From assembly GCA_018667855.1 (NCBI GenBank), contig JABIRL010000346.1:1-46435 (forward strand): DNA of 46,435 bases, read 5' to 3'. Origin of the DNA: Rhodospirillaceae bacterium. Its GTDB lineage: Bacteria > Pseudomonadota > Alphaproteobacteria > GCA-2731375. How positions within the stretch are numbered: the stretch's first letter is position 1; each line of letters opens with the position of its first letter. Shown one piece after another: positions 15,833 through 46,435 of this stretch. The position numbers and the translations under genes were made by a program. The notes beneath the pieces are model-generated. The model made no database searches, had not been told where the DNA came from, and saw only the letters and a list, made by a program, of their open reading frames with translations.

Positions 15833-16006
15833 TCAGTGTTCCGGATCGTCCTTTTTGCTTGCCTCACCCGTCCCATCATCGGGGCCCGGTTCCTCCTTCG
15901 CCTCCATCGCGGTGCTGATGGCCGGGAAATGCGTCGGGCGGTGCATCGCGGCGTTCAGGAACGCGGATTTAAGTTTCGAAAGAATACCGGAAATGTTGAA
16001 AAGCAT
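15833..16006 (-). CDS. Small acidic-tailed protein (57 aa), unrecognised
   Basis: This short frame lies between the LysE and secreted-protein genes on their strand. The ATG at 16006 has a near-perfect GGAGG seven bases ahead, the main reason to accept it. The product begins with a short amphipathic helix (MLFNISGILSKLKSAF) and ends with a Glu/Asp/Lys-rich tail. No cysteine pair, no full membrane span and no known domain is seen. It could be a membrane-surface peptide or a partner of either neighbour. It may be expressed with the LysE gene, which ends 41 bases upstream. Opposite-strand frames here look like shadows. Confidence 0.5.
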   Translation of the reverse strand: MLFNISGILSKLKSAFLNAAMHRPTHFPAISTAMEAKEEPGPDDGTGEASKKDDPEH

Positions 16007-16047
16007 GATCCTTCCTCCAACCGTGGCAATTCACTGTAACTACGTGG

Positions 16048-16680
16048 CTATTGCCGCCGACCGGTCAGCGCCGCGTTCACCCCCAGGCCCACATAAAGGC
16101 TGCCGATCACATATCGCGGCCACGGCCCCTGCATGAGACGCCCGCCAACCCAATGGCGCAGGCCGCCGGCCAGGACGGCATAGGCGCTGTCGGTCAGGAA
16201 CGCCAAGCCAACGTAGATCAGCCCCAGCAACAGAATTTGCCGCGGCACCTCGCCCTGGGCCGGTTCAATGAACTGCGGCAGGAAGGCGAGAAAGAACACC
16301 GCGATCTTTGGGTTGAAAACACTGACGATCACCCCGTCCATGAAAAGCCGGTACAGGGACAGCGGCGTCGCGGTCGCCGCGCCGACCACGGCGTTGCGGT
16401 TCAAAAAGGTGCTTATTCCCAAATAGATCAGATACCCCGCACCCAATAGTTTGACGATGCCAAACGCCGTCGCCGAGGTGAGCAGAATGGCCGACAGCCC
16501 AACGGTCGCGGCGGCCACATGCACCAGGGCGCCGACCGACAGCCCGATGACAGAGGCCAAACCGGCCCGATACCCCTGCGCCACACTCCGCGCCACCACA
16601 TACAAAACCCCGGGCCCCGGTATCACCAGCACCACAAGCGCCGCCGCCATGAACCCCAACAACAACGCGCCACCCGGCAT
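16048..16680 (-). CDS. LysE/RhtB-family amino-acid exporter
   Basis: The 210-aa inner-membrane protein has five to six hydrophobic helices and the family signature near its start (VVLVIPGPGVLYVVARSV). A later FNPKIAVFFLAFLPQF block near 126 is also typical. LysE/RhtB members export basic or neutral amino acids or related metabolites; the substrate is unknown. The frame opens at 16710, but the ATG at 16680 has AGGAGGGG six bases ahead and gives the usual family start, so it is used. The secreted-protein gene and the 57-aa frame follow on the same strand. Confidence 0.9.
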   Translation of the reverse strand: MPGGALLLGFMAAALVVLVIPGPGVLYVVARSVAQGYRAGLASVIGLSVGALVHVAAATVGLSAILLTSATAFGIVKLLGAGYLIYLGISTFLNRNAVVGAATATPLSLYRLFMDGVIVSVFNPKIAVFFLAFLPQFIEPAQGEVPRQILLLGLIYVGLAFLTDSAYAVLAGGLRHWVGGRLMQGPWPRYVIGSLYVGLGVNAALTGRRQ

Positions 16681-16848
16681 AACAACCCCTCCTACGACAA
16701 ACGCGCCCACCGTTCAGACCGTACCATTCCGGTCATGGAACGACGGTCAACGGAAAAAATTGTACCGGATTGCGGCCATAATTTGTTAACGGTCACCAAA
16801 ATCCAGGCTGGTGCGTGAGAGTTACTTTACCAACAGCCAAAAAAAACC

Positions 16849-17499
16849 TTAGAATCGGCCCAAATTATAGATCCTATTCTTTGGCAATATTAAATTATGT
16901 TCTCTTGCATATCCGTCCAGCAAAAAATAAATGCTATTGTAGTCACTTTCAGATTCCATCGCAGACCACTTTGAATACAGAATTTTTTCATCTCCATCCT
17001 TTAGATACGGTGACAATATTCTTACGTGCTGCTGGAAACTTGAAATAATAGAATGTTCAATATAATCTTGAAGGTATATCGAAATATAAAGTACAAAATA
17101 AATTGTCATAAAAGAAATAAAAAATACACGTGGAATTTTTGGCTTTTTTGTAAATATAGGGTCTAATTTAGCCATAATTTTACTTTTTGTCGTTTTTTCT
17201 GATTCGCTATCAATGATGACTGGGTATTTTATTTTAATTATTTTCATTCCGAAAATATAAGTTATTCCGATCATTAAAAATGTGATTGCAAAATGAAGAA
17301 GTAGTGAATGATCTATAGTTACAAGTAATGCAGATTCAGAAAATATTTCGTCGATATATAGTTGGCTTAAGAATTTTTATACTTGAAAAAAAACAATTGC
17401 AATCCAACTAATGGCTGGATCCAAAAAATAAATAAACATGGCGCTGGCCACGATACTACAAATGATAGCGGTAGCATGTTTTCGAAGGATTTCAAGCAT
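16849..17499 (-). pseudogene. Broken membrane-protein gene with internal TAA
   Basis: One reading frame runs from the ATG at 17499 to the stop at 16849 (217 codons) and is interrupted only by a TAA at 17377-17379, codon 41. Read through, it gives a protein with about three membrane helices: one at 10-38 ending in FFQV before the stop, one at about 62-85, and one at about 128-150 (FFISFMTIYFVLYISIYL). A soluble C-terminal part of about 65 residues follows. Downstream of the stop an ATG at 17274 could restart a 141-aa piece. Base composition is much lower in GC than the neighbours, indicating recent transfer. No family is assigned. A sequencing error at the stop is possible. Confidence 0.65.
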
Positions 17500-17532
17500 C
17501 TTCGCCCACCTGACTCGGGTGTGTTCAGCGTA

Positions 17533-17724
17533 TTATAATTCAAAATCTATCGTTATGTAAGAATCTCGAGTAGTGCATTTTCGAAATTCCTGCTTTTCCA
17601 TTGGTAGCATGGTGATTAGCAACTGATAGAAGGATACATGATCCTCGTCTCGTTGGTTGCGATATGATCGTTCATATTCGTTGCATACCTGTAAGTTCAG
17701 AATAAATTTGAATTTTGTCGTCAA
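17533..17724 (-). CDS. Small hypothetical protein (63 aa) in AT-rich island
   Basis: A 63-codon frame with a TTG start sits 33 bases upstream of the broken membrane gene, on the same strand and with the same low GC. The product is charged, with two Cys and no membrane span. There is no convincing ribosome site, and in-frame stops lie immediately upstream, so no longer start exists. It may be the first gene of a transferred pair, a remnant, or not a gene. Confidence 0.3.
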   Translation of the reverse strand: MTTKFKFILNLQVCNEYERSYRNQRDEDHVSFYQLLITMLPMEKQEFRKCTTRDSYITIDFEL

Positions 17725-17771
17725 TGATCATCATTCTGACCATAAGAAATCGCATCGGCCGATTATGGTTT

Positions 17772-19352
17772 CTAAATCGGTGAAATCGGCCGCACTCTCG
17801 GCGGGTGTTTGCTGGGCCGCCTTGGCGCGCAGCGTTCGAAGGTGTTGATCAAATACTGCCGCGTCTGCCTGGGGTCGATGACTTCGTCGATGCCGAAGCC
17901 TTCTGCGGCGCGTTGGGCGCCGAGTTGGCTCTTGAAAATGTCGATGATTTCCTGGCGGCGGGCGGCGGGGTCTTCGGCGGCTTCGTAGTCTCGGCGGTAG
18001 GCGACGTCGACGGAGCCTTCGACGCTCATGGCGCAGATTTCGGCGGTGGGCCAGGCGAAGCAGGCGTTGTTGTCGAAGGCCTTGCCGCCGCCCATGGCGT
18101 AGTAGCCGCCGCCGTAGCCCTTGCGCAAAACGATCGAGACGCGGGGTACCGTGGCCAGGCCCATTTCGTACATCAGCCGGCCGGAGCGGCGGCCCAGGCC
18201 GGCTTTTTCGGCCTCGGAACCGATGGCGAAACCGGGCACGTCGATCATCATCACCAGGGGCAGACCGAAAGCATCGCACAGCGCGATGAAGTGGGAGGCT
18301 TTTTCGCAGGCCTTCACATCCAGCATGCCGGCCAGGTACTTGGCCTGATTGGCCACGAAACCAACGGGGCGTCCGTTCAGCCGGGCAAATGACGTTACCA
18401 TGTTGCGGGCATAGGAGGGCTTTTTCTCGAACACGCTGCCCTTGTCGGCGATCAGTTCGATGATCCGCCGCACGTCGTAGGATTTGCGCGGGCTGGCGGG
18501 AATAATCTCCAGCAATTCTTCTTCTGATCTATCAACAGGATCGTTTATCTTGTTGATCGGAAGGGGTTGTTGCGCATTCGACGGCAGGTAGCTGAGGAAG
18601 CGTTTGACGGCCGCCAAAGCCTGGTCCTCGTTGTCCACCGCCAGGTCCGAGATACCGTTGCGGGAGGTCTGGGCCTGGGCGCCGCCCAGATCTTCCTTGG
18701 AGATATCTTCCCCCAGGCCCGCCTTGACCAGGGCCGGGCCGGCCATGCCCATGGTGGATTGTCCCTTTATCATGACCACGAAATCGGCCAGGGAAGCATA
18801 GTTGGTGGGCCCGGCGAAACCCTGGCCCAGCATGGCCATGGCCTGGGGCACCCAGCCGCAATTGCGCGCGAACATCTGGAAGACTGCGTTGGCGGAGGCG
18901 AAATGGCGGCTGTCCTGGCCGTCCTGAATGCGGTGGCCGCCCCCTTCCAGCAATCCCACCAAGGGCATGCCGTTGTCGGTGGCGATGGTGATGGCCCGGT
19001 TGCCCTTGGCCGCGCCGTGGCTGCCGGTGCTGCCGCCCAGAACAGTGTAATCATGCGACATGACCGAAACCGGGCGACCGTCGATCAGGCCGGTGCCGGT
19101 CACCAGGCCATCGGCGGGGGCCACCAGACCCTTGTTGAAGCCCGTGTCGCGCAGGGGTTCCACCAGGGATCCGACCTCCTGAAAGCTGCCATCGTCACAG
19201 ATCTTGGTGATGCGTTCCCGGGCGGTGTATTTGCCATGGTCATGCTGCCGGGCCACGGCCTCCGGCCGCCCCTCGTCCAGAACGGCGGCGCGGGCAGCCT
19301 CGATCTTGTCCAACAAGGCGCGGCCGTCGCTGGCTTCACCATCTCTACTCAT
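17772..19352 (-). CDS. Acyl-CoA carboxylase carboxyltransferase subunit
   Basis: The 526-aa protein is the beta (carboxyltransferase) subunit of a propionyl-, methylcrotonyl- or acetyl-CoA-type carboxylase. It transfers carboxyl from biotin to an acyl-CoA. Both crotonase-fold halves are present: TARERITKICDDGSF near 43, DYTVLGGSTG near 100, and in the C half MIDVPGFAIGSEAEK near 368 and RKGYGGGYYAMGG near 408. Length fits the family. The biotin carboxylase and biotin carrier subunit that it needs are not in the window. An AT-rich island begins just past its stop. A CoA-transferase gene lies upstream on the same strand. Confidence 0.93.
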   Translation of the reverse strand: MSRDGEASDGRALLDKIEAARAAVLDEGRPEAVARQHDHGKYTARERITKICDDGSFQEVGSLVEPLRDTGFNKGLVAPADGLVTGTGLIDGRPVSVMSHDYTVLGGSTGSHGAAKGNRAITIATDNGMPLVGLLEGGGHRIQDGQDSRHFASANAVFQMFARNCGWVPQAMAMLGQGFAGPTNYASLADFVVMIKGQSTMGMAGPALVKAGLGEDISKEDLGGAQAQTSRNGISDLAVDNEDQALAAVKRFLSYLPSNAQQPLPINKINDPVDRSEEELLEIIPASPRKSYDVRRIIELIADKGSVFEKKPSYARNMVTSFARLNGRPVGFVANQAKYLAGMLDVKACEKASHFIALCDAFGLPLVMMIDVPGFAIGSEAEKAGLGRRSGRLMYEMGLATVPRVSIVLRKGYGGGYYAMGGGKAFDNNACFAWPTAEICAMSVEGSVDVAYRRDYEAAEDPAARRQEIIDIFKSQLGAQRAAEGFGIDEVIDPRQTRQYLINTFERCAPRRPSKHPPRVRPISPI

Positions 19353-34704: not shown

Positions 34705-35112
34705 GGAGTGATCAGCCGGCAATTCGGCCAGTTCGATCAGGATATCGCCGGTGGATGCCGGATCTAGAAAGGCAATGCGGCTGCCGCCGTGACCGGATTT
34801 TGGTGTTTCATCCAACAGCTTCACGCCCTTGGCCCGCATCTCATCCAAGGCGGCGTCGATATCCTCGACCTCGAAACACAGGTGGAAAAGGCTTTGCCCC
34901 CGCTCTGCGACCCAGTCGGCAACAGGCGACGTGGTGCCGCCGGCCTGCAATAGCTCGACAAAGGTCTCACCCACCGGATACATGGCCAGCTTGGTATCGC
35001 CGATGGTCTCCTCGTAGTCCAATTCGAGTCCCAGGGTATTCTCCAGCATGGTCATGGACTCGGCCATGTTGTGCACCGCGATGGCGACATGCTCTATTCG
35101 TTTGATTTTCAT
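34702..35112 (-). CDS. mce: Methylmalonyl-CoA epimerase-type VOC protein
   Basis: The 136-aa protein closely follows methylmalonyl-CoA epimerase, which interconverts (R)- and (S)-methylmalonyl-CoA in propionate breakdown. Candidate metal ligands are His8 (IEHVAIAV), His77 (LFHLCFEV) and Glu127 (ILIELAEL), and the GETFVELLQ and SPVADWVAERGQ blocks fit that family. The ATG at 35112 is used; a GTG at 35118 is a close alternative. Methylmalonyl-CoA mutase is not in the window. The enclosing genes are LLM and nitroreductase types, so a related VOC function cannot be excluded. Confidence 0.82.
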   Translation of the reverse strand: MKIKRIEHVAIAVHNMAESMTMLENTLGLELDYEETIGDTKLAMYPVGETFVELLQAGGTTSPVADWVAERGQSLFHLCFEVEDIDAALDEMRAKGVKLLDETPKSGHGGSRIAFLDPASTGDILIELAELPADHS

Positions 35113-35156
35113 TGCCACGAAATCCTTCAAAATTTGTGCCCGCGCCTATTCAACGG

Positions 35157-36221
35157 TCACCACGACTTAAGAACCGGCAGCACCTCCTTGGCGAATAGTT
35201 CGAGGCCCCGTACCGACACGTCATAAGGCGTGCCGCCAAAGCGGAAGGCAATGTTCAATTCGAAATCGCCGACCAGCTTGCGCCGCTCTTCCAGGCCGCG
35301 CAGGATCCTGTCCGGCGTGCCCCAGCTGGCCGCCTGCATGAAGCCGGCCACCGCGCCCTCGGCGCCGCTTTCGCGGGCGATTTCAGCCTTTTGCTGATAG
35401 GCATCGTAGCCCTTGACCGTCTTGAAATGCTCGCCCAGGAATTCGTAGTGATAAAAATTGCTCTCGACGAATTTGCCCTGATACTTTTTGGCCTCTTCCT
35501 CAGTTTTGGCAAGGTCGGTGCCGCAGACGCAGAATTCGGTCAGCATGATGGTCGGTGGTTCGGTACCGTGATACTTGCGATGCAGCTCGCGTCCATGTTC
35601 GATGACTGGCACCCGCATCTCCCACGGCCGGTCGGCGAACATGACGTGGTGGGCGCCCAGCTTGGCGGCGGAATCAACTGAATCCTCGCTCGATGCCACG
35701 GCGTAAATGCGCCCGTCGAAAGAATGTTGCGGCTTTGGCCGGATTTCGGTACGGGGTTGTTTGTAGAATTCTCCGTCGCCCTCGATGAAGCCGGTCTTGA
35801 GCGCATTGATGATCATTGGGGCAGCTTCGTCGAAGCGTCCTCGTGACTCGTCCATGGCAATGCGAAAAGCTTCAAATTCCCGTCTCGCCAATCCGCGTCC
35901 CATGCCGAAGCGAAGACGTCCCTTGCTCAACATATCCAACACGGCGGCATTTTCGGCCACCCGCAGGGGATCATGCCAGGGCAGGATGACGGCCGCGGTA
36001 CCCACATCAATGTCGGGACAAATCGCGGTCAGATAGGTCATCAGATTGATATTGTCGGGCACGAAGGAGTAGTCATTGAAGTGATGCTCGGCCGACCATA
36101 GGCAGTCAAAGCCGGAATCCGCCGCTAAACGGGCCAACCCGATTTCCTCCTCCCACACATGGGCATCAGGGCAGTCGTCCCAGCCATACGAGGCAAAGAC
36201 CATCATCATACCGACATCCAT
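35157..36221 (-). CDS. LLM-class luciferase-like monooxygenase
   Basis: The 354-aa protein is a luciferase-like flavoprotein with CLWSAEHHFNDYSF near 40, RLRFGMGRGLARREF near 101 and a long C half typical of LuxA-type monooxygenases. It would oxygenate a small substrate with FMNH2. The ATG has AAGGAG ahead. It lies 44 bases before the epimerase-like gene on the same strand and 36 bases after the nitroreductase gene, so all three may be one operon. The nitroreductase could supply reduced flavin. Confidence 0.9.
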   Translation of the reverse strand: MDVGMMMVFASYGWDDCPDAHVWEEEIGLARLAADSGFDCLWSAEHHFNDYSFVPDNINLMTYLTAICPDIDVGTAAVILPWHDPLRVAENAAVLDMLSKGRLRFGMGRGLARREFEAFRIAMDESRGRFDEAAPMIINALKTGFIEGDGEFYKQPRTEIRPKPQHSFDGRIYAVASSEDSVDSAAKLGAHHVMFADRPWEMRVPVIEHGRELHRKYHGTEPPTIMLTEFCVCGTDLAKTEEEAKKYQGKFVESNFYHYEFLGEHFKTVKGYDAYQQKAEIARESGAEGAVAGFMQAASWGTPDRILRGLEERRKLVGDFELNIAFRFGGTPYDVSVRGLELFAKEVLPVLKSW

Positions 36222-36257
36222 CAGGCGTCTCCTTTTTCCAGTTTTCTTCGGCGGGCG

Positions 36258-36905
36258 CTATTTCCAGGGGGGGGACTGGCCCCAGCGATCCCATGAGGTC
36301 GTGGCGCTGGTCGGCATCCGGCTGGTTGGTCCGAACTTGCCGCGCGGATAGCCGATGGGAATACAGCAATGAAAGACCTTGTCCGCCGGCACCTCGAACA
36401 TGGCGTTGACCCGGTCCATGACCTCCGGATGCAAGGTGGTCAGCACGGTGCCAAGGCCCAGGGCGCGGGCCGCCAGCAACAAATTCTGCACGCCGGGGAA
36501 GGTCGAGGACGCGGCCACCCCGGAGGTTTCCGAATAGGCCAGGATCACCGCCGGGGCATTGACCATTTCATCCGCCAGCAGGGCGGGCATGCGGTAGACG
36601 GAATCCTCCGGAATATCAGCCTTGGAGGTCCAGCCGTAAGCATCCCGGCGTTTCGCCCACCATGCCTCGAAATACAGCTTTCCGAATGCTGTGATGGCTT
36701 CGCGGTCGCGAATGACCAGATACCGTGCCGGTTGCAGATTGCCGCCGTTCGGGGCTTTGGAAGCGGCATCCAAAATGATCTGTATCTGCGCATCCGAGAC
36801 CGGACGATCCGGATCCAACCGGCGCATGGCGCGGTGGCTGAACATCGCTTCGCCGATCGGCATCGTCAGTTCCGCGGGCGGGTCGAGGCGGACCATATCC
36901 ATCAT
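36258..36905 (-). CDS. Nitroreductase-family flavoprotein
   Basis: This 215-aa FMN oxidoreductase has the nitroreductase pattern FSHRAMRRLDPDRP near 24, SKAPNGGNLQPARYLVI near 47 and LLAARALGLGTVLT near 145. It transfers hydride from NAD(P)H to nitro compounds, quinones or free flavin. The ATG at 36905 with AAGGA ahead is used rather than the frame's first Met at 36935. It lies first in a same-strand run with an LLM monooxygenase (36 bases away) and the epimerase-like gene. Supplying FMNH2 to the LLM enzyme is plausible. Confidence 0.9.
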   Translation of the reverse strand: MMDMVRLDPPAELTMPIGEAMFSHRAMRRLDPDRPVSDAQIQIILDAASKAPNGGNLQPARYLVIRDREAITAFGKLYFEAWWAKRRDAYGWTSKADIPEDSVYRMPALLADEMVNAPAVILAYSETSGVAASSTFPGVQNLLLAARALGLGTVLTTLHPEVMDRVNAMFEVPADKVFHCCIPIGYPRGKFGPTSRMPTSATTSWDRWGQSPPWK

Positions 36906-37033
36906 GTTCTTCCTTGCGGTTTTAACAGGCGCCATTCAGGCGCAACAAAGTAATCGCCGCTCTGACCGTCACACCATAAGTCGGGTTAGGGCCGGCGCCG
37001 AAGTTTTATTCCAAAAAAATATCCGGGTCGTGG

Positions 37034-37330
37034 TTAGCCTGGATCGGCAATGTCGTAATAGGTGACCTTGGGCGGTTCCGCCACTAATCCGCCCAATGCA
37101 TCCAGATCACCGCGTTCCTGGCGCCAGCCCATATAGGCTTGATGGTCTTCCTTGGTATCCCAAATTTCATAGACGACGATGTGGTCCGAGTCGTCCTGGT
37201 TGACCACCATTTCGATCTTTTGCGCACCTTGCCGCGCCCGCGTGTCGCCGAGCATGCCTTTTAACGCGCCAACAAGTTCGCCGCCCTTGCCCGGTTGCGT
37301 CTTTAATTCCAATGTGACTGCAATCGCCAT
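37034..37330 (-). CDS. Antibiotic biosynthesis monooxygenase (ABM) domain protein
   Basis: The 98-aa protein is a single ABM domain (ferredoxin-like, dimer), with VTLELKTQPGKGGEL at the start, VVYEIWDTKEDHQAYM near 51 and a C-terminal PPKVTYYDI strand. Members are cofactor-free oxygenases or act in quinone and aldehyde chemistry. The ATG at 37330 has GGGGAGAG ahead and is used instead of an ATG at 37390. It is 128 bases upstream of the nitroreductase on the same strand. Confidence 0.88.
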   Translation of the reverse strand: MAIAVTLELKTQPGKGGELVGALKGMLGDTRARQGAQKIEMVVNQDDSDHIVVYEIWDTKEDHQAYMGWRQERGDLDALGGLVAEPPKVTYYDIADPG

Positions 37331-37711
37331 GAAGTCTCTCCCCGATGTGTTTGCGTGATATTTTACGACCCGCGAGGCCGACATTTTCATATTAACTTTT
37401 GAAACGCACCTGATCCTACCAAAAACTGGACATCAGAGAAGCGATTTCCTTGTCAAGGTCGGCGTACGCATATCAATTGCCGCGCGCCATCGCTTGCGGA
37501 TGGGCATCATTTAACGCGTTTGTGAGTTCTCTGCAGTTGTGATCCCAAACTGGCTTGCCAGTGTGTTGTCAATATGCTGCACTCTGTTGTTGCTTTTTGA
37601 ATATTTCTCGAAGTTTTTGGTATGCGCGTCATGTGGTCCCGTGAGGCTGGAATCGTTGTGAATGTTAACCGCGTACCCTGAAATCGCCCTTTGGCATGGC
37701 GGGAAGCAGAT
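37331..37711. other. Gene-free stretch between ABM and histidine kinase genes
   Basis: About 380 bases without a convincing gene. Short opposite-strand frames lack ribosome sites. The region should hold both divergent promoters, but I could not fix -35/-10 boxes. A TTAACC half-site near 37665 is too incomplete to call as CtrA. Confidence 0.5.
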
Positions 37712-38857
37712 ATGAGTGGCAACGGATCGGAACAAAATCATCAAATCGCGGCACAGGAACTCATGCTGTCTTCCGCGATCGAAGCGGTTGAGGATGCCTA
37801 TCTCTGCTTTGACGACAGCCTGGAAGTATTGGCTGTTAATGCCGCCGCGCAAAGCCTTTTCGGATACACGGCCGGCGAATTGATCGGTCGTAATGCGGGC
37901 GATTTAATCCGTCCGGTCGCTGACGGCGGCGAGAAGGAGATGATCGACAATCTATTTTCTTACTCCGACTGGAAGTCGGCAAAGGCCGACTGGCGGGATG
38001 TGAATGTAACGACCAAAGATGGTTCAACACTTCGCGTCGCGGTTACCTCGGTCAATTCTTCCAGCAATGGTGTTAGTGTTGCGACCGCCTTGTTTCGCCT
38101 GATTTCCGATGATGGTGAAGTCGTGACCATGGGCAGCCAAACCTTCGAAGGCGCCCATTCCATCCGAAACAGATTTCTATCTTCCATGAGCCATGAACTA
38201 CGGACGCCGTTGAATGCCGTCATAGGCTTTTCCGACATTATCGGACGGGAAGTGCTTGGCCCGGCGACGCCCGCGGAATACGCGGAATATGCGAGGGATA
38301 TTAACGGCGCGGCCATGCACATGTTGGATTTGATCAGGGATATCCTGGAGTATACTCAGATTGAGCGGAGCCAGCGTTCGATGGAAATTACGCCGGTCGA
38401 TATTGCCGCCGCGATCCGTTTTTCCGCCGGCATGGCAAGGCCGATTGCAGAAAAAGCCAATGTCTCGATGCAGCTTTCTGATTTGGATGAACCTATTCTT
38501 ATTCAGGCCGATGAACGGGCTGTTCGCCAGATTATTTTAAATTTGGTCACGAATGCGATCCGATACAATAAGGACGGCGGGACCGTCCGGATCACCTCTC
38601 GGCAGGAAGCCGGTAGAGGCGCCCTGGATGTGGAAGACACCGGCATTGGTATCAAGACTGGTGATATCGACAGGATATTCGAACCATTTACGACGCTGCA
38701 GGAAAGACCATACAGTTCCCAAGACGGCGGCGTTGGATTAGGACTTACGATCGTGAGGCGATTGGCCGATGCCATGGACGCCGACATTACCATTCGCTCT
38801 ATCCCGGACCAAGGGACCATGATGACGGTCACTTTTCCCCTGGCCCAGTCGGGCTGA
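37712..38857 (+). CDS. PAS sensor histidine kinase, soluble
   Basis: This 381-aa histidine kinase lacks membrane segments, so it senses a cytoplasmic signal. It has a PAS domain at about 18-135. The HisKA helix has phospho-acceptor His161 (SMSHELRTPLNAVIGF). The HATPase domain has N-box Asn281 (LVTNAIRYN), G1 DTGIGI near 309 and G2 GVGLGLTIVRR near 340. All are intact. No response regulator is adjacent, so it is an orphan kinase. The ATG at 37712 is chosen over the one at 37691. A GNAT-like gene follows after 200 bases. Confidence 0.92.
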   Translation: MSGNGSEQNHQIAAQELMLSSAIEAVEDAYLCFDDSLEVLAVNAAAQSLFGYTAGELIGRNAGDLIRPVADGGEKEMIDNLFSYSDWKSAKADWRDVNVTTKDGSTLRVAVTSVNSSSNGVSVATALFRLISDDGEVVTMGSQTFEGAHSIRNRFLSSMSHELRTPLNAVIGFSDIIGREVLGPATPAEYAEYARDINGAAMHMLDLIRDILEYTQIERSQRSMEITPVDIAAAIRFSAGMARPIAEKANVSMQLSDLDEPILIQADERAVRQIILNLVTNAIRYNKDGGTVRITSRQEAGRGALDVEDTGIGIKTGDIDRIFEPFTTLQERPYSSQDGGVGLGLTIVRRLADAMDADITIRSIPDQGTMMTVTFPLAQSG

Positions 38858-39060
38858 TAGACCATAAGGCGATAACTCAGCCGCCGGTGCCGCGAAATAC
38901 GGGCCGGCCGGAAAAATTATCTGCGTTTGCGATACAGATGTTGTCCCGATGCCGTGCCGTTGATCAGCTGAAGCGATGATCAAGATGAGAAATTATTCAC
39001 AAAACGGGAACTGCGGTCGTCGTTATTTCGAATGTCTTCATCTATCCGGAGGGTCATGAA

Positions 39061-39927
39061 ATGAACTACGCCTTGAATATCGAAAACCGGTTGGATTTCG
39101 CCGAAGAGGCCAGGCAATTGCTTGAACAATCGGGCTATGAGTTGCGGATCAATCCATTCATGTCGCAATGGGCAACGGCGGCCGCTGAATTCCCGGGGAA
39201 AAAAGTCCTGAACCCGGAATTCGATCCGAAACTCATAAATCTTAATCCGGCGAATAGCTTCTGGCTGGAGCTGAATTGCGGGGAGACGATTGCGAGTTTC
39301 GCCATGCGGGATCTTGGCGCGGAAAACCTTTGCGATTTAATCAGCACATACGCCCTGTGGGGAGGTGGTCCGGGCCCCCTACAAGTTGAAAACCGGGACC
39401 GGCTGCCGACAGGCAATCTGACGCTTGAAGGCGCGTGCTGGATTCATCCCGCGCACCGAGGCCTGGGTCTACCATGGCTGCTGCCCAGGATCGCGCGGGC
39501 GCTGGCATTACAACGGACGTGGGCCCCCAGTTCATTCGTGGGGAATATCGTCAACCGGCCGTTGGCTGACGGCAAGCAGCTGGCACTGGAAAAATATGGT
39601 TGCCAGCGGCTATTCAAAATCGCGGATAATTTTTGCTACCCGTTTCTGCCCGTCCAGCCGCTTTATCTCACTGTCTCGGATCGCGACTATGTCATCGACC
39701 AGCTATCAAATTCGGCGCGGTGTCTCCGGCAATATGCCGATCAAAAGGTGGGTAGAGACTTCGTTGCTTTTATTCGAGAGGGGCAAAAGCAGCCGACGAA
39801 AACTCGACGGCGCGCCGTTGGCGGTATGTTCGATACGTTGGTAGGAGGGGCTGCTGAAATAGGCGGCCGTCGACCAATCAACGATCACGGCTTCACCAAA
39901 AATAGGGTCGTAAAAATCGGTCGGTGA
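39061..39927 (+). CDS. GNAT-like protein with antisense-overlap tail
   Basis: The 288-aa frame has a GNAT-like stretch LTLEGACWIHPAHRGLGLPW near 120, matching the acetyl-CoA loop of acyltransferases, but the fold is otherwise loosely matched. The N-terminal 215 residues are unique. The last 73 residues (216-288) are encoded on the opposite strand of a convergent PAS_5 gene and are Arg/Gly-rich, as shadows usually are. The true protein may have lost its stop, or may use it as a real tail. It lies 203 bases after the histidine kinase. Role unknown; confidence in the acyltransferase call is low. Confidence 0.6.
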   Translation: MNYALNIENRLDFAEEARQLLEQSGYELRINPFMSQWATAAAEFPGKKVLNPEFDPKLINLNPANSFWLELNCGETIASFAMRDLGAENLCDLISTYALWGGGPGPLQVENRDRLPTGNLTLEGACWIHPAHRGLGLPWLLPRIARALALQRTWAPSSFVGNIVNRPLADGKQLALEKYGCQRLFKIADNFCYPFLPVQPLYLTVSDRDYVIDQLSNSARCLRQYADQKVGRDFVAFIREGQKQPTKTRRRAVGGMFDTLVGGAAEIGGRRPINDHGFTKNRVVKIGR

Positions 39928-40239
39928 TCGGCCTGTGTTATCGCCCAGGTTCTCGAATGCGTGTCGTCCGCAGTGGACAAGCTGTGAACGTTCCGGCGCG
40001 TCTCTATTGAACCGTGCGAGGTGAATTTGATCCAGATCCAGCCCGCCCGCCTCAAGACCCGGCCAATCCACTTCCGCGGATGGCAGCTGATTGCCAGTGG
40101 TATGCCAAAGCCACCATGAGAACAACTGCCCCAAAGGTCCGTCCGAGCGCATCAAATCAACATCGAGTTTTTGGCGACTGACATAATCGGCGCCGGTCCA
40201 CTTAGACGCAATTTCAAGAATTCGGTCCGATGGGCTCAT
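39706..40239 (-). CDS. PAS_5-type domain protein (second)
   Basis: The 177-aa protein has the same PAS_5 pattern as the gene at 25.8 kb. LVHCGRHAFENLGDNTGRSP lies near 87, FGEAVIVDWSTAAY near 113 and a C-terminal LLLPLSNKSNEVSTHLLIGI strand near 150. The N-terminal 40 residues include the DVDLMRSD and LWHTTGN pieces usual for the family. The last 222 coding bases are shared, antisense, with the GNAT-like frame. No output domain is attached. An AT-rich gap precedes it. Confidence 0.85.
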   Translation of the reverse strand: MSPSDRILEIASKWTGADYVSRQKLDVDLMRSDGPLGQLFSWWLWHTTGNQLPSAEVDWPGLEAGGLDLDQIHLARFNRDAPERSQLVHCGRHAFENLGDNTGRSPTDFYDPIFGEAVIVDWSTAAYFSSPSYQRIEHTANGAPSSFRRLLLPLSNKSNEVSTHLLIGILPETPRRI

Positions 40240-40532
40240 TTAGACAACTCAATCGACAGGTTCAGAGATTTTTCAATATTCAAGCAAATCAGCAAATTGC
40301 TTCGTATTCTTTACCTCGCGAGAGATCAAGAATTGTTCGTTGATCACAAAGTTTTGGCATGCCTGTATGTTTTCTGTGTCCTTGTCGGCAGTCATGCCAG
40401 ATTTTCCAGAATCAATACGCACAAAGTATAGAATAATTAGCGAACGGTTCCGCCAAATATTTTTGTTTCAACCTATCGGCCATGGGTCGTCGCGGGAGGG
40501 ATCCCGGTCCATGGGAATTTATTTTATTGCCG
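40240..40532. other. AT-rich gene-free stretch before the BVMO stop
   Basis: No real gene is seen. A plus-strand frame at 40171-40431 begins inside the PAS_5 gene and has no family features. The stretch is lower in GC than the neighbours and probably holds the PAS_5 promoter and the end of the oxygenase transcript. Confidence 0.45.
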
Positions 40533-42158
40533 CTATTCGGCGGCCGCGACCCGATCGGTGCCGGGAAGGAAGTCAAATCCCTTGTAGCCATCCGCGACGA
40601 CGTCATCACAGATTTTTCGATAGGTGCCCGCTCCGCCCACGTAAGGCATGAAGATGCGCGGCTTTCCCGGAATATTGGCGCCCATGTACCAGGATGCGGC
40701 TTTCGGAAACAACGTTCGGTGGGCGACCACGTTGACATGTTCGACCCACTCATCCTGCGCGGGAAGGGTCGGCGCAATGGTCGCCAGGCCGTCCGCGCGC
40801 ATATGTTCCAAGCAATCGGTCACCCAATCGACATGCTGTTCGATCGAGACCATCATGTTGGTCAGAACCGAGGGGCTGCCCGGCCCGGTGATCATGAACA
40901 GGTTCGGAAAGGCTTCGGTCATCAGACCGAGATAGGTGCGCGGACCGGCCTGCCATTTGTCGCGCAGGGTGGCGCCGCCCAAGCCTTGAATGTCGATCTT
41001 GAACAGGGTGCCGGTCATGGCATCGAAGCCGGTGGCGAAAACGATGGCGTCGAAATCAAAAGAACGGCCGGTGGTCGCGAGGCCATTCGGGGTGATCCTG
41101 TCAATCGGGGTATCGTTGAGATCCACCAGGGCGACGTTGTCGCGATTGAAGGTCTCGAAATATCCGGAATCAATGCAGATGCGTTTGGTGCCGATGGGAT
41201 AACCCTTAGCGGCCAGCAGTTCAGCTACCTGAGGGTCCTTAACGATGGTGCGGATTTTATCGCGGACGAATTCCGCCGCTGTTTCGTTGACGCTCTCGTC
41301 GACCAGCATGTCCCGGTAGGACCCCAAAAGGGCACTGCCGCCCCGGTCCCAGCGTTCTTCATAAGCGGTGGCGCGTTCGTCATCCGCCGCACCTATGCCC
41401 GAGATATTGCGGAATTCACCCAGCGCGCCTTTCGGCGTATGGCGCTGCTCTTCACGGAGTGCCGCATAATTGTCTTTCCACGAATTGGCATAGTCCTCGG
41501 TCATGGGGCCGTTGCGGGAGGGCAGGGAATAATTCGGCGTGCGTTGAAAAACGGTGACATGTTCCGCCTGTTCCGCCAGCACCGGAATGGCCTGAATGGC
41601 GGATGAGCCGGTTCCGATAACGGCGATGCGCTTGCCTGTGAAATCAATCTCTTCATGGGGCCAATTGCCGGTGTGGTAGGTCGTCCCCCGATAATCGGCC
41701 AGACCCTCGAATTCCGGCGTCTGTGCGGCCGATATGCAGCCCGTCGCCATGACACAGAATTGCGCGGAAAGGCTTTCACCCTTGTCGGTCGTGACTGTCC
41801 AGCGCTGGGATTCCTCGTTGAAATGGGCCGCGGTCACGGTGGTGGAGAATTCGATCCCCCGCCGAAGATCGAACCGGTCGGCGACATGATTGGCATATTC
41901 AAGGATTTCCGGTTGTGCCGAAAACCGCTCGCTCCAATCCCATTCCTGCTGCAGCTCTTCCGAAAAAGAATAGGAATACTGCATGCTTTCCACATCGCAC
42001 CGGGCACCGGGATAACGGTTCCAATACCAAGTCCCGCCCACATCATCGCCTGCCTCAAACACACGAACTGAATATCCCAGGCCGCGTAGCCGGTGGAGAA
42101 GATACAGCCCCGAAAATCCGGCACCGACAATGACAACATCGCAATTCTGGGTATTCAT
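40533..42158 (-). CDS. Baeyer-Villiger-type flavin monooxygenase
   Basis: The 541-aa flavoprotein has GAGFSG at 12-17 for FAD and a Baeyer-Villiger fingerprint FxGxxxHxxxWP-type (YRGTTYHTGNWP near 162). A second GTGSSA motif near 180 binds NADPH. It would insert oxygen next to a carbonyl, turning a ketone into an ester or lactone. The ATG at 42158 is used; an upstream frame to 42386 is not credible. The GGAGG site is ten bases ahead. It is divergent from the OsmC gene, with 207 bases between starts. Confidence 0.93.
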   Translation of the reverse strand: MNTQNCDVVIVGAGFSGLYLLHRLRGLGYSVRVFEAGDDVGGTWYWNRYPGARCDVESMQYSYSFSEELQQEWDWSERFSAQPEILEYANHVADRFDLRRGIEFSTTVTAAHFNEESQRWTVTTDKGESLSAQFCVMATGCISAAQTPEFEGLADYRGTTYHTGNWPHEEIDFTGKRIAVIGTGSSAIQAIPVLAEQAEHVTVFQRTPNYSLPSRNGPMTEDYANSWKDNYAALREEQRHTPKGALGEFRNISGIGAADDERATAYEERWDRGGSALLGSYRDMLVDESVNETAAEFVRDKIRTIVKDPQVAELLAAKGYPIGTKRICIDSGYFETFNRDNVALVDLNDTPIDRITPNGLATTGRSFDFDAIVFATGFDAMTGTLFKIDIQGLGGATLRDKWQAGPRTYLGLMTEAFPNLFMITGPGSPSVLTNMMVSIEQHVDWVTDCLEHMRADGLATIAPTLPAQDEWVEHVNVVAHRTLFPKAASWYMGANIPGKPRIFMPYVGGAGTYRKICDDVVADGYKGFDFLPGTDRVAAAE

Positions 42159-42365
42159 TTCGCTCGATCCTCCTGACGGTACGGCGCCGCATGTTTGATG
42201 CGTTTCGCCGATCAAAGATGAATTTATGTGTTGAGAGAAACAATTGAAACCTTTTTCCCGAAACACGGAAGCAAAATTGATGCATTGGCCCCCCAGTTTA
42301 GAGGCACTGGAAACAACAACACCAGCAACCGAAATCAAAACATCAAATCCAAAGGGGATAAGACA
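42159..42365 (+). promoter_or_regulatory. Divergent promoter region and A/C-rich OsmC leader
   Basis: The 207 bases separate two divergent starts. From about 42305 to 42358 the plus strand is rich in A and C with few T, as in an unstructured leader that helps ribosome entry. An AAGGGG site precedes the OsmC ATG. No operator palindrome or riboswitch was recognised. Confidence 0.45.
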
Positions 42366-42941
42366 ATGAGCCAAACCACCACACAAACAGCCACCACGGA
42401 AGTCAACAATGGCGTCAACGTAGAGGCGTTGCTAGGCGCCCGCGAAGCCTTGGACGCGGCGCCCGAGGCGGCGCAGTTCAAATGGCGCACCACTTGTGAA
42501 TGGGTCAACGGCACGCACAGCCGCTCGACCATCAGCAGCTTTTTCGGCCTCGGGGCGGAACAATCCCGTGATCGAACATTTTCAGTGGAATCCGATCATC
42601 CGGAAGTTTTCGCGGCCGAAGACAATGCGGCGACACCGGTGGAGATCGTACTGTCAGGGCTGGCCAGCTGTCTGACTGCCGGCGTGGCGGCGGTAGGCCA
42701 GCACCGGGGTATCCAACTGCATTCGGTCAAGGCAACGGTCGAGGGCGATATGGACATTCAGGGCATTCTTGGCATCGATGACGAGGTCCGCAACGGCTTC
42801 GGTACCATTCGGGTGCATTTCGAGATCGATGCGGATGCGACCGACGACGAAATCAAGGCGCTTGTGGCGCAGTCGCAAAAGCGCTCGGCGGTGTTCGATA
42901 TCATCACCAATCCCACCAATGTGGTCGTAACGGCTAACTAA
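42366..42941 (+). CDS. OsmC-family protein, single-cysteine type
   Basis: This 191-aa OsmC-fold protein has the first conserved cysteine as Cys102 (LSGLASCLTAG), and a second Cys at 44. The usual resolving cysteine of Ohr/OsmC peroxidases is absent: the segment reads RSAVFDIITNPTNV near the C-end. It therefore belongs to the broader OsmC-like branch, which may act on acyl or thiol substrates rather than as a classical peroxidase. The ATG has AAGGGG. The FAD oxidoreductase gene follows after 46 bases on the same strand, so an operon is likely. Confidence 0.88.
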   Translation: MSQTTTQTATTEVNNGVNVEALLGAREALDAAPEAAQFKWRTTCEWVNGTHSRSTISSFFGLGAEQSRDRTFSVESDHPEVFAAEDNAATPVEIVLSGLASCLTAGVAAVGQHRGIQLHSVKATVEGDMDIQGILGIDDEVRNGFGTIRVHFEIDADATDDEIKALVAQSQKRSAVFDIITNPTNVVVTAN

Positions 42942-42987
42942 GCCGACAAGACGCTTTACAACAAAACGCTTTAGAGGAGCGCGTGTC

Positions 42988-44229
42988 ATGAAACGCACCA
43001 CGACGGTTATTATCGGCGCCGGGCAATCCGGGCTCGCCTTCTCCAAGCAACTCGCCGACCGCTCGATCGACCATGTGTTGATCGAGCGGGGTGAGGTCGC
43101 CAATTCCTGGCGCAAGGAGCGATGGGACTCCCTTCGTCTGTTGACGCCAAACTGGCAAAGCCGTCTTCCCGCCTACGCCTATGACGGCAACGACCCGGAC
43201 GGCTACATGAATATGGCGGAGGTCATCCGGTTTCTACAGGGTTACGCCGATTTTACCGGCGCCCCGGTGGAGACCGATACGAATGTGATAGCTGTCCGCG
43301 CATCGGACGGTGGTTATGTGGTTACGACGGACCGTGGTGTCTGGCGATGCACCAGTGTGGTGCTGGCGACGGGCGCCTGCAACGTGGCGACCGTGCCCAA
43401 GACCGCTCGGAACTTGCCGGATAACATTAAAAGCATAACGCCCATGGATTATCGCGGTCCCGATCAATTGGACGACGGCGGCGTGATGGTGGTCGGCGCT
43501 TCGGCCACCGGCGTGCAGCTGGCGCGGGAAATCCAAGCCTCCGGCCGGCAAGTAACCTTGTCGGTTGGTGAACATGTTCGCGTGCCGCGCCTTTATCGCG
43601 GTCGGGATATCAAATGGTGGATGGATACCACCGGCATGATGGATCTGCGCTATGACGAAGTTGATGACATCAGGCGCGCCCGCCGTCTGCCCTCTCTGCA
43701 ACTCGTCGGTACGCCTGAACATATAACTCTCGATCTCAATGCCCTGCGTGGAGCGGGTGCTGGGATCGTCGGCAGATTAGCCGGGCTGGGGAATACCAAG
43801 GTTCAGTTCTCAGGCTCCCTTGCCAATCAATGTGCCCTGGCGGATCTGAAAATGAACCGCCTGCTGGACACGATTGATGAATGGATCACCGCTAATGGTA
43901 TGGAGCGGGACTTCGGGGCGGGATATCGATTTGCGGCGACGCGACTTGATCCCGAACCGTGTTTGGCACTGGATTTGGCCGACAGGGGTATCAAAACTGT
44001 CCTGTGGGCGACCGGTTACCGGCCGGATTATTCCTGGCTCGAGGTCCCCGTGTTCGATCGCAAAGGCCGCGTACGCCACGACGGCGGCGTGGTGGACGCC
44101 CCCGGCATGTACCTGATGGGGCTGCCGTTCCTACGCCGTCGCAAGTCATCCTTTATCGACGGTGTCGGAGATGATGCCCGCGACCTCGCCGATCATTTGT
44201 GCACCCGGCTGCACAGCGCAGCCGCGTGA
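42988..44229 (+). CDS. FAD/NAD(P)-binding oxidoreductase, FMO-like
   Basis: The 413-aa flavoprotein has FAD motif GAGQSG at 10-15, a second dinucleotide motif VGASATG near 170 and an ATGYRPDYSWL block near 338. It lacks the Baeyer-Villiger fingerprint and is FMO/thioredoxin-reductase-like. It may hydroxylate or reduce a small substrate. The ATG has GAGGAG ahead. The next gene starts on its stop (TGATG) or 15 bases later, so the two are coupled. It lies 46 bases after the OsmC gene. Confidence 0.9.
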   Translation: MKRTTTVIIGAGQSGLAFSKQLADRSIDHVLIERGEVANSWRKERWDSLRLLTPNWQSRLPAYAYDGNDPDGYMNMAEVIRFLQGYADFTGAPVETDTNVIAVRASDGGYVVTTDRGVWRCTSVVLATGACNVATVPKTARNLPDNIKSITPMDYRGPDQLDDGGVMVVGASATGVQLAREIQASGRQVTLSVGEHVRVPRLYRGRDIKWWMDTTGMMDLRYDEVDDIRRARRLPSLQLVGTPEHITLDLNALRGAGAGIVGRLAGLGNTKVQFSGSLANQCALADLKMNRLLDTIDEWITANGMERDFGAGYRFAATRLDPEPCLALDLADRGIKTVLWATGYRPDYSWLEVPVFDRKGRVRHDGGVVDAPGMYLMGLPFLRRRKSSFIDGVGDDARDLADHLCTRLHSAAA

Positions 44230-44243
44230 TGAAGGAAAATACC

Positions 44244-45416
44244 ATGCGAAATGCCCAAAATTACCAACCCCGATACGATGTGGTGGTCGTCGGTGCCCGC
44301 TGCGCCGGTGCCTCCACGGCGATGTTGCTGGCCCGGGCCGGTGCGAAAGTACTTATGGTCGATCGGCAAAAATACGGCTCCGATGTGGTTTCGACCCACG
44401 CCCTGATGCGAGCCGGTGTCATCCAATTGTCCCGGTGGGGCCTGTTGTCGAAACTAATGGCCACGGGTACCCCGCCGGTGCGACGTACGGCCTTCCACTA
44501 TGGCGATGAGGCGGTCCACATCGATGTCAGGCCAGAGCACGGCGTGGATTTTCTCTGCGCCCCCCGACGTACCGCATTGGACAGCGTCCTGGTTGATGGG
44601 GCACGGGAGGCGGGTGTCGAAGTACGACATGGCGTCACGGTGACGGACCTGCAATTTGGTTTGGATAGCCGCGTCACTGGCGTTCATCTGAAAAATGCCG
44701 ATGGTGAGATGGAAACAATTCGGGCCGGTATCGTGATCGGCGCCGACGGCCGCCAATCAATGATCGCCCGGCGGGTTGGCGCCCATACCTACACCAGGGG
44801 CACGGACAGTTCAGGCTATGTCTATGGTTACTTCGAAAATTTGGTGGACGACGGCTTTCATTGGTATTTCGAAAAGAACGTTGCCGCCGGTGTCATCCCC
44901 ACCAATGGCAAGCACCATTGTGTATTCGTCGGCGTCCATTGCGATCAGTTCGCCGGGACGTTCCGACGGGATCTGGAGGGCGGCTTCCTGAAGACGGCGG
45001 CGGCCAATTCACCGGAGCTCCGAGAGACTCTGGACACAGCTGATCTGGTTGGACGGCTGCGCGGCTTTTCGGGCGGTGTCGGACATATCAGGCAGTCCCA
45101 CGGTCCCGGCTGGGCCCTTGTCGGCGATGCGGGTTACTTCAAGGATCCCCTGACGGCCCATGGCATGACTGATGCCTTTCGGGATGCGGAACTGTTGTCC
45201 CGCGCGGTTCTGGATGGGCGAAGCCTGGCGTTTGCCCATTACCAGGAAGAGCGCGATGTCATATCAAAATCGTTCTTCGAGGTGACCAACGACATTGCGG
45301 CTTTTTCGTGGACCATGGACGAGATCAAGGACCATCATGGCCGTCTAAGTCATGCCATGAAGGTGGAAGCAAGCCATGTCGCTGCATTTTCGCCCATAAC
45401 AAATCTTGCCGCGTAA
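44244..45416 (+). CDS. FAD-dependent monooxygenase, GGR/aromatic-hydroxylase-like
   Basis: This 390-aa flavoprotein has FAD motif GARCAG at 17-22, a DG motif (IGADGRQS near 171) and GDAGYFKDPLTAHG near 294. This is the pattern of PHBH-type hydroxylases and geranylgeranyl reductase-like proteins. The halogenase WxWxIP motif is not seen. It would hydroxylate or dehydrogenate an organic substrate. The ATG at 44244 with AAGGA is used; the ATG at 44229 that overlaps the upstream stop is close. It is followed after 17 bases by the MaoC-like gene. Confidence 0.9.
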   Translation: MRNAQNYQPRYDVVVVGARCAGASTAMLLARAGAKVLMVDRQKYGSDVVSTHALMRAGVIQLSRWGLLSKLMATGTPPVRRTAFHYGDEAVHIDVRPEHGVDFLCAPRRTALDSVLVDGAREAGVEVRHGVTVTDLQFGLDSRVTGVHLKNADGEMETIRAGIVIGADGRQSMIARRVGAHTYTRGTDSSGYVYGYFENLVDDGFHWYFEKNVAAGVIPTNGKHHCVFVGVHCDQFAGTFRRDLEGGFLKTAAANSPELRETLDTADLVGRLRGFSGGVGHIRQSHGPGWALVGDAGYFKDPLTAHGMTDAFRDAELLSRAVLDGRSLAFAHYQEERDVISKSFFEVTNDIAAFSWTMDEIKDHHGRLSHAMKVEASHVAAFSPITNLAA

Positions 45417-45433
45417 TAGGAGATAGAACGACC

Positions 45434-45889
45434 ATGACGGATACACTTTGGGCCCGGACCATCGCCGGGCAGCCGGAACAGGGCGCAACCGCGAGCCGCG
45501 CCCGCACGACAAGCATGCGGGATGTGGAAATGTTTACCGAGATGACCGGTGATAGAAACCCCATTCACTACGACAAGGCCTTGGCCGAGGCGTCCCCGTT
45601 CGGCGGCTTGATCGTACAGGGCGGCGTGACCACCGGATTGCTCAATGCGGTGGTGGCCGAGGATTTGCCGGGGCCCGGCACGGTGTTTCTTGAAACCCAT
45701 TGGAACTTCGTCAAAGCCGTCGCGGTCGGCGAGAGCATTACCGCGACCGTCACAATTGTTGAGGTGCGCGATGACAAGCCGATCTGCAAGCTTGAAACGA
45801 CCGTGCGCAATGACAACGGCGAAGACTGCGTCGTGGGAACCGCCACGACTTATACGATGCCCCTCCGTGAGGTCGATGATTGCGCCTGA
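45434..45889 (+). CDS. MaoC-like (R)-specific hydratase
   Basis: The 151-aa hot-dog-fold protein has the hydratase catalytic motif TGDRNPIHYD, with Asp40, Asn42 and His45, followed by PFGGLIVQGGVTTGLLNAV. It would add or remove water from an enoyl-CoA in a beta-oxidation-like route. The ATG has GGAGATAG ahead. It follows the flavin monooxygenase by 17 bases. The truncated-haemoglobin gene starts 99 bases later, so it may have its own promoter. Confidence 0.93.
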   Translation: MTDTLWARTIAGQPEQGATASRARTTSMRDVEMFTEMTGDRNPIHYDKALAEASPFGGLIVQGGVTTGLLNAVVAEDLPGPGTVFLETHWNFVKAVAVGESITATVTIVEVRDDKPICKLETTVRNDNGEDCVVGTATTYTMPLREVDDCA

Positions 45890-45988
45890 TAATCGTTCCA
45901 ACCTCCTTAATGATTTGTTTAATCCCAATTGATAATTGAATAACGGCGCGTCAGTCGGAGGCGTGGGTTTTCAATTGGGGGATTGAGT

Positions 45989-46411
45989 ATGGCGGAAACA
46001 TTATTTGATGAGCTTGGCGGCATGCAGGGGATAGAACGGGTACACCGCATATTCTATGACAAGCTGCTGATGCATCCGTGGCTCAAAGGATTCTTCGACG
46101 GCGTGCCGCGTCCGCATTTGGAATCACAACAGACCGAATTCATGGCCGGCCTGTTCGGTGGTCCGAAAGTCTATGGTGGCCGGCCGCCGGCAACGGCACA
46201 CGTGCATATGTTCATCACCGAGGAAGTTTTTTTCACGCGCCATATCCTGTTGGAAGAAGCGCTGGACGAAGCCCGTGTGCGCGAGGATCTAAAGGAGCGT
46301 TGGCTGGATGCCGACATGGGCATGAAGCGAGCGCTTGTAAAGGACGATATTTCGGAATGCGAAGGCCGTTACAAGAACGAGCCCATTATCGCCATCGAAA
46401 AGCCTAGGTAG
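45989..46411 (+). CDS. Group 1 truncated haemoglobin
   Basis: The 140-aa globin matches the truncated haemoglobin family: LFDELGGMQGIERVHRIFYDKL at the start, LESQQTEFMAGLFGG in the distal helix, and proximal His71 (ATAHVHMFITEEVF). Length fits the group 1 (HbN-like) class with a longer C-terminal tail. It would bind O2 or NO, supplying oxygen to the nearby oxygenases or removing NO. The ATG at 45989 has a GGGGG run ahead; a TTG at 45983 is less likely. It is last in the same-strand run with the OsmC, FAD and MaoC genes. Confidence 0.9.
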   Translation: MAETLFDELGGMQGIERVHRIFYDKLLMHPWLKGFFDGVPRPHLESQQTEFMAGLFGGPKVYGGRPPATAHVHMFITEEVFFTRHILLEEALDEARVREDLKERWLDADMGMKRALVKDDISECEGRYKNEPIIAIEKPR

Positions 46412-46435
46412 CCAGTCTACAGGTTTTCTTATTCC

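Follow-up and report, generated by a model that had tools for sequence, protein, structure and literature searches.

A conserved OsmC-flavoprotein operon in an alphaproteobacterium shares a GAAAC-repeat element with a candidate two-component regulon

Several of the enzyme families nearest to the proteins described here are marked by short motifs. FxGxxxHxxx(Y/W) is the fingerprint of class B flavin monooxygenases (FMOs) and Baeyer-Villiger monooxygenases (BVMOs), FxGxxxHxxxW(P/D) is that of type I BVMOs, WxWxIP is the halogenase motif, and an Asp-His dyad within GDxNPxH is the signature of (R)-specific enoyl-CoA hydratases of the MaoC type. The MSMEG_0569 flavin-dependent oxidoreductases (TIGR04046) belong, we assume, to a seven-gene nitrilase-linked cluster. 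Ohr/OsmC thiol peroxidases have two catalytic cysteines, and a passage on C. glutamicum Ohr reports that changing either Cys to Ser is damaging (PMC4486171). The MSMEG_0567-0569 frames are assigned nitrilase-like and flavin oxidoreductase domains in a passage of another study (PMC6039565), and an excerpt of a third names HemAC-Lm of Leishmania as a haem-coupled cyclase (PMC12755159). Here we describe a four-gene unit on contig JABIRL010000346.1 of a Rhodospirillaceae bacterium (assembly GCA_018667855.1, Alphaproteobacteria), which encodes an OsmC-family protein, two flavoproteins and a MaoC protein, together with a GAAAC-repeat element that precedes it. The operon is widely conserved, has no assigned function and is apparently unstudied; the text accessible in the open-licence literature searched held no description of the operon or of the element. 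We consider it probable that this is a regulated oxidative stress or detoxification operon belonging to a small two-component regulon.

The window, which is the whole stretch of DNA analysed (46435 bases), is one entire contig of a 5.3-Mb genome that is divided into 371 contigs and is 94.2% complete. Genes were called as open reading frames with Pfam matches, and both agree with the list of the original prediction, whose layout (tandem OsmC, FMO-like, flavin adenine dinucleotide (FAD) enzyme and MaoC genes, a divergent BVMO and a globin further on) was exact. Gene starts are over-extended in lists based on open frames. The element and the operon are placed as follows.

42237..42284, plus strand: operator-like element, GAAAC-N4-GAAAC at +0/+9, degenerate repeat (GGAAGC) near +30, TGATGCA at +41 (upstream-region comparison)
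42294..42302, plus strand: possible -10 region, reading CAGTTTAGA where the consensus has tA.a (consensus of 36 sites; putative promoter function)
42360..42941, plus strand: OsmC-family protein with a single conserved Cys, C104, and S176 (PF02566, 67.5 bits, cut-off 27.5)
42988..44229, plus strand: FMO/CzcO-like flavoprotein with two dinucleotide-binding motifs, the OsmC partner (PF13738, 81.1 bits)
44244..45416, plus strand: FAD_binding_3 flavoprotein of monooxygenase/halogenase fold (FAD_binding_3, 83.6 bits)
45434..45889, plus strand: MaoC hot-dog protein with D40, N42, P43 and H45 conserved (PF01575, 71.5 bits)

The gaps between these genes are 46 (OsmC-FMO), 14 (FMO-FAD) and 17 bases (FAD-MaoC), and the globin starts 99 bases after MaoC. 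A search of genome contigs with the FAD enzyme returned 142 relatives, the best 80 of which were kept (the 80 loci) and scored for gene order by tblastn within set gap limits. OsmC, the FMO-like gene and the FAD enzyme follow one another on the same strand in 71 of the 80 loci, and MaoC stands directly after the FAD enzyme in 32, these loci being interrelated and the counts not independent. Because the order is kept in 71 loci, the arrangement is more than chance, and the grouping of OsmC, two flavoproteins and MaoC into one unit, as originally predicted, is borne out by the order conserved in relatives. Median gaps in the 80 loci are 63, 15 and 15.5 bases for OsmC-FMO, FMO-FAD and FAD-MaoC. 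A listing based on open reading frames gave lower counts (all four genes in order in 28 of 81 loci including the window, the first three in 37) because genes that cluster apart are missed; clusters of shadow-strand frames were left out of the neighbourhood listing, which was a matter of judgement. The three-gene order is recorded under Alphaproteobacteria, isolates of Anaeromyxobacter, an isolate of Streptosporangiaceae, and metagenome-assembled genomes of Acidobacteria, Gemmatimonadetes, Actinomycetota and Anaerolineae, whose names may be wrong. In several other genomes of the same genus the OsmC-FMO-FAD-MaoC unit was not found; where the unit exists in close relatives (same-genus loci L034 and L035) the four-gene order is kept and the genes are not scattered.

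The core of the unit was sought in 289 genomes sampled evenly from the class, using thresholds of E 1e-40 for the FMO-like protein and E 1e-60 for the FAD enzyme, with six candidates per genome scored for each. An FMO relative was present in 36 genomes, which separate into 14 with 47-100% identity (at least 391.6 bits) and 22 whose best match is 34-40% (at most 283.1 bits). OsmC with at least 64% identity occurs in exactly the same 14 genomes as the close FMO, and in all 14 it immediately precedes the FMO gene on the same strand, with 20-83 bases between the two matches in 13 and 378 bases in one. The 22 genomes with the more distant FMO gave no OsmC match at E 1e-30, and two further genomes have OsmC at 35-36% with no FMO match at E 1e-40. 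Over 68 loci, identities correlate between OsmC and FMO (r 0.77), FMO and FAD enzyme (0.66) and OsmC and FAD enzyme (0.44), each value being reached in 0 of 500 permutations. On these sequence comparisons, OsmC and the FMO-like protein look like an obligate pair. The FAD enzyme was rejected as a core member and treated as an extension because no genome of the class draw other than the window's own and G159 has it beside the pair; in G107 a 42% match is on a different contig.

Related arrangements were seen outside these sets. Relatives of the FMO below 60% identity occur in 603 plasmid records (459 from Klebsiella), and in one Klebsiella plasmid locus (L139) the relative has RidA-like and ArgE-like genes as neighbours and the annotation shows no OsmC. 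Four OsmC-FMO loci (L120, L124, L127 and L130) have a second OsmC of about 30% identity and a neighbour of about 275 residues; of these neighbours three were scanned, in L120, L127 and L130, and each is a UbiE-like methyltransferase. The scores of UbiE-like methyltransferases on ArsM models are far below the cut-off.

The window OsmC resembles the thiol peroxidases in its domain and in one invariant cysteine, C104, found in 73 of 73 aligned sequences and also in the remote OsmC of G192, G271, Novosphingobium, Leptospirillum and L127. It differs from them at S176, conserved in at least 93%, which we take to be the place where the second Cys of OsmC/Ohr proteins would fall. With Ser in place of this Cys, the two-Cys cycle known from such peroxidases is not expected to operate. 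A selenoprotein was considered and discarded, since the TGA in the OsmC match of L009 sits in an out-of-frame N-terminal tail and not at the Cys.

In the FMO-like protein both dinucleotide-binding motifs are kept, and the class B fingerprint is absent, as it is in seven relatives; the region reads YRGPDQLDDGGVMVVGASATG. Its predicted model (predicted local distance difference test score, pLDDT, 88.1) is structurally nearest to DiatB and small bacterial FMOs. The best-scoring named NCBIfam is TIGR04046, matched over nearly the full length; however, the score of 347.2 bits is below the family cut-off of 498.35, on which ground membership of the nitrilase cluster was set aside as unlikely, and the partner is OsmC. 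Among the neighbours covered by the scan, in the window and in a selection of the loci, none was a nitrilase. The 22 class genomes with the 34-40% FMO possibly hold the true TIGR04046 family. The model of the FAD enzyme (pLDDT 92.7) has its closest structures in FasV, Bmp2 and further enzymes of the halogenase fold, and it shares the fold of the flavin halogenases and monooxygenases FasV, Bmp2, PltA and PqsL (best Foldseek match 8zop, FasV, template modelling score 0.85, 22% identity), but the halogenase motif is missing from the consensus of 43 sequences. These structure searches gave folds for both flavoproteins, not substrates. In MaoC, D40, N42, P43 and H45 are conserved in at least 93% of 31 sequences, and the GDxNPxH dyad motif is present.

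The element surfaced as a word common to the compared upstream regions. Its consensus, built from those 36 sites, out of 71, that show the most common spacing, has GAAAC at +0 and +9, GACA near +31, TGAAACA at +41 and tA.a at +57. In the window, the 14-mer lies at 42237-42250, 109 bases 5' of the OsmC start, within the 198 bases that separate OsmC from the BVMO; a search of positions 35000-46435 for a riboswitch in the OsmC leader gave no Rfam match up to E 1. The 80 loci (1.40 Mb) contain 8 sites with no mismatch, 34 with at most one and 57 with at most two, compared with means of 0.1 (maximum 1) at one mismatch or fewer and 2.5 (maximum 9) at two or fewer for 30 shuffled words. TGAAAC recurs at +40/41 in 39 of the 57 sites versus 131 of 24000 random positions. 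The nearest labelled downstream gene is OsmC for 16 sites, a histidine kinase for 13 (12 loci; at least one looks intragenic), an abhydrolase that precedes the globin and cyclase for 7, a CysK-like/glutaredoxin fusion (PALP-Grx) for 2 and FMO for 1. Sites with at most two mismatches are present in 24 of the 80 loci; 16 of these 24 have a globin and a nucleotide cyclase, the globin standing directly before the cyclase in 15, and the pair is found in 0 of the 56 siteless loci.

The 14-mer is rare in the window's genome. Only two exact copies occur, and six in total at one mismatch or fewer, while the reversed-pattern control gave 0. One exact copy precedes the OsmC operon; the other (C20:43402, on another contig) lies between two genes, one for a 1282-residue hybrid kinase that contains several PAS domains, the other for a 239-residue OmpR-type regulator. 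A one-mismatch copy 1.16 kb further on (C20:44566) precedes a 119-residue truncated globin and a 370-residue cyclase, and an extended copy at C81:4276 (L149:4276-4691) precedes a 98-residue, possibly exported protein without a Pfam match whose start, judged by eye, is signal-peptide-like. The copies on C55 and C143 have no +40/41 half-site and fall inside a frame or at its end; those on C137 and C286 (13-base word, one mismatch) were counted as chance because they are inside coding frames or without the extension. An OmpR/PhoB-type regulon has direct repeats ahead of its target genes as well as ahead of the gene for the regulator, and the sites, as predicted from sequence, fit this pattern.

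In genomes G004 and G009 the order is kinase, site, regulator, site, globin and cyclase, with an extra gene before the globin in G004. The order on Novosphingobium plasmid pLA3 is OsmC-FMO-FAD-globin-cyclase-kinase-regulator, followed by genes for a pyridoxal phosphate (PLP) enzyme and a decarboxylase; in the cultivated N. pentaromativorans US6-1 the components likewise lie side by side. An ars operon adjoins this locus; the other annotated loci read list no ars genes, and an arsenic link was dropped. In G192 and G271, which are from another family and have no close OsmC or FMO, the histidine kinase gene has a divergent element, which faces a protein of 310-358 residues without a Pfam match and a different OsmC (37-39% identity to the cluster). 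The regulator was searched in 35 genomes, 25 of which were also scanned for the word. A regulator of at least 52% identity is present in 15 of the 25 (partial in G111), and 13 of these 15 have a site with at most one mismatch; among the 10 genomes without such a regulator, four do (G007, G206, G041 and G055), and exact copies are found only in G007. A cyclase above 285 bits occurs in 4 of the 14 pair-bearing class genomes and in 11 of the 275 others, a higher share in the pair-bearing group.

The window itself has a different globin.

45989..46411, plus strand: truncated globin, 140-residue subtype, operon membership uncertain (Bac_globin, 47.0 bits)

Since the window is a whole contig, nothing past this gene is visible. 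It differs from the 119-residue cyclase partner, has no operator of its own within two mismatches, and is 62% identical to a globin of L126 whose neighbours are an OsmC-FMO pair and a Fer2-FAD-NAD reductase. The original prediction had tied the globin to the operon for O2 supply or NO removal. A globin connection is real, but in the relatives the conserved link joins a globin with a nucleotide cyclase and two-component genes, which suggests sensing and not O2 supply; the 140-residue globin of the window, being of another subtype, may have a different role.

The globin-cyclase pair possibly encodes a split gas-sensing cyclase. It resembles haem-coupled cyclases in that a globin gene adjoins a class III cyclase gene, in the PAS match of one family member (L096) and in a weak HNOBA-like coil in two (17.7 bits in L150 and 22.9 in L096, below the cut-off of 23.4). 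In contrast to soluble guanylate cyclase, in which haem sensor, HNOBA and cyclase form one protein, globin and cyclase are separate genes here, and the cyclase of the window's genome has a Guanylate_cyc match with HNOBA below the cut-off and no PAS match. Its specificity residues presumably are of the adenylate type. A truncated globin directly followed by a class III cyclase was seen at L150:6693-8207, L114:11227-12637, L183 and L196, and also in class genomes without the OsmC operon. The NnrR regulon, according to passages of PMC6710368, includes FAD oxidoreductases and a truncated haemoglobin of group III; a link to NO through NnrR was rejected, as that account gives other motifs and no OsmC.

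Starting from the gene order, the OsmC-FMO pairing and the positions of the common element, as read from the sequences, we infer regulator binding, a gas input and the chemistry as follows. OsmC, FMO, FAD and MaoC would make up a single operon whose products carry out an oxidative reaction sequence, probably a protective one in stress or detoxification, and which is switched on by a two-component system encoded elsewhere, namely the PAS-rich hybrid histidine kinase and the OmpR-type response regulator. The regulator would bind the four GAAAC-like half-sites before OsmC. As the element also precedes the regulator's own gene and the truncated globin-cyclase pair, the operon would belong to a small regulon, whose input may be haem-based (O2 or NO) and whose output would be a cyclic nucleotide, probably cyclic AMP. 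The FMO-like protein and the single-Cys OsmC may handle the first substrate as a unit, after which the FAD enzyme would oxygenate the product further and MaoC would add or remove water. A tentative extension, somewhat unlikely in its full form, is that the two-component system and a split gas receptor, with the truncated globin acting in trans on the class III cyclase, make up a new O2/NO-responsive alphaproteobacterial regulon, the effector of which is new chemistry by an obligate pair of single-Cys OsmC and FMO-like protein.

Several observations, besides the interdependence of the 80 loci, weigh against a regulated stress operon of this kind. The element precedes OsmC in only 16 of the 80 loci and most OsmC loci are without it, so other regulators would act elsewhere; 18 of the 57 sites have no labelled gene downstream. 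Many OsmC loci do have other regulators near (TPR-winged helix, LuxR-abhydrolase, AAA ATPase), the neighbour label 'TPR-TransReg' being set aside because it partly marks opposite-strand frames that overlap OsmC. Regulator and site do not always coincide: G681 and G111 (the latter with its partial regulator) have no site at one mismatch or fewer, G206, G041 and G055 have 1, 1 and 5 one-mismatch sites with no regulator at E 1e-60, and in G007, a genome 84% complete, the element is present and the regulator was not found. Among the 14 class genomes with the pair, just 4 have a cyclase that scores above 285 bits. Furthermore, a passage of PMC11218638 states that truncated haemoglobins, cyanoglobin among them, have no part in oxygen signalling.

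A possible but doubtful alternative is that the genes form a catabolic or biosynthetic pathway for one small molecule containing N or S, such as a nitro compound, an N-oxide or a thiol, with OsmC as an accessory and no stress response. It would account for the FAD-less OsmC-FMO loci beside a nitroreductase (L119 and L122) or an NMO/FabK-like enzyme (L128), for the AurF-like protein, below the Pfam cut-off, that follows the element in G004, for the CysK-like/glutaredoxin fusion and PLP decarboxylase that recur in Rhodobacterales-type loci and Novosphingobium, and for tripartite ATP-independent periplasmic (TRAP) transporter genes in a few loci. However, these neighbours all vary between loci and the core that stays constant is OsmC-FMO, and the element ties the operon here to a signalling module and not to a substrate-specific regulator. 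The AurF-like protein, a candidate N-oxygenase, is encoded between the element and the globin (L196:7948-8862). The fusion (L114:15330-18289, also L056, L058, L096 and L098) belongs to a protein cluster with members in 17 of the 80 loci, was checked for both domains in L099 and L114, and is beside the PLP decarboxylase in several loci.

It is unlikely that the four genes are a transferable cassette and that the element marks a broad response-regulator regulon without special meaning for the operon. The patchy spread over phyla, the minority of loci with the element before OsmC, and G009, a genome of the same genus that has the regulator and signalling module without the OsmC-FMO operon, agree with this view, the last two also weighing against the regulated stress operon; on the other side, sites are few in 5.3 Mb, and one of the two exact copies is at the operon.

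The divergent neighbour had been predicted to take part in the pathway.

42161..40533, minus strand: BVMO-type flavoprotein, divergent neighbour and not a conserved part (open reading frame, Pfam and fingerprint)

This protein carries the type I fingerprint as YRGTTYHTGNWP, with Y for F. A BVMO diverges from OsmC in 0 of the 80 loci, and matches at E 1e-20 occur in only two, at 27% identity and 2.1 and 5.5 kb from the FAD enzyme. OsmC was matched in 76 of the 80 loci, and in 68 of these the sequence in front of it extends for 1800 bases or more, so that contig ends explain few of these absences. No BVMO was found beside the operon in L034 and L035, and a paralogue, 62% identical, is on contig C304 of the window's genome. 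On these comparisons, the BVMO is a bystander and not part of the operon. The oxidation of a ketone or terpenoid suggested for the set also lost ground, as the FMO-like protein is without the FMO/BVMO fingerprint and no scanned neighbour points to terpenoids. A pathway that starts with oxidation of a ketone or terpenoid by the BVMO, is continued by the flavoproteins and MaoC and draws its O2 from the globin is very improbable, since the presence of the fingerprint and the adjacency of the six genes in the window are outweighed by the 0 of 80 divergent arrangements and by the same-genus loci.

Elsewhere in the window, genes for a luciferase-like monooxygenase, a nitroreductase and an ABM-domain protein stand in a row on the minus strand (35157-37333), and the guanine plus cytosine content falls to 0.479 at 16001-18000, the other 2-kb steps having 0.54-0.63.

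If the globin acts on the separate cyclase, the two would be a two-gene version of the gas-sensing cyclases, of which the accessible text of the open-licence literature searched held no description. The OsmC-FMO pair moves together across several phyla with no assigned function, which makes it a clear target for enzymology, and the common element offers a way to test directly under what conditions these bacteria use it.

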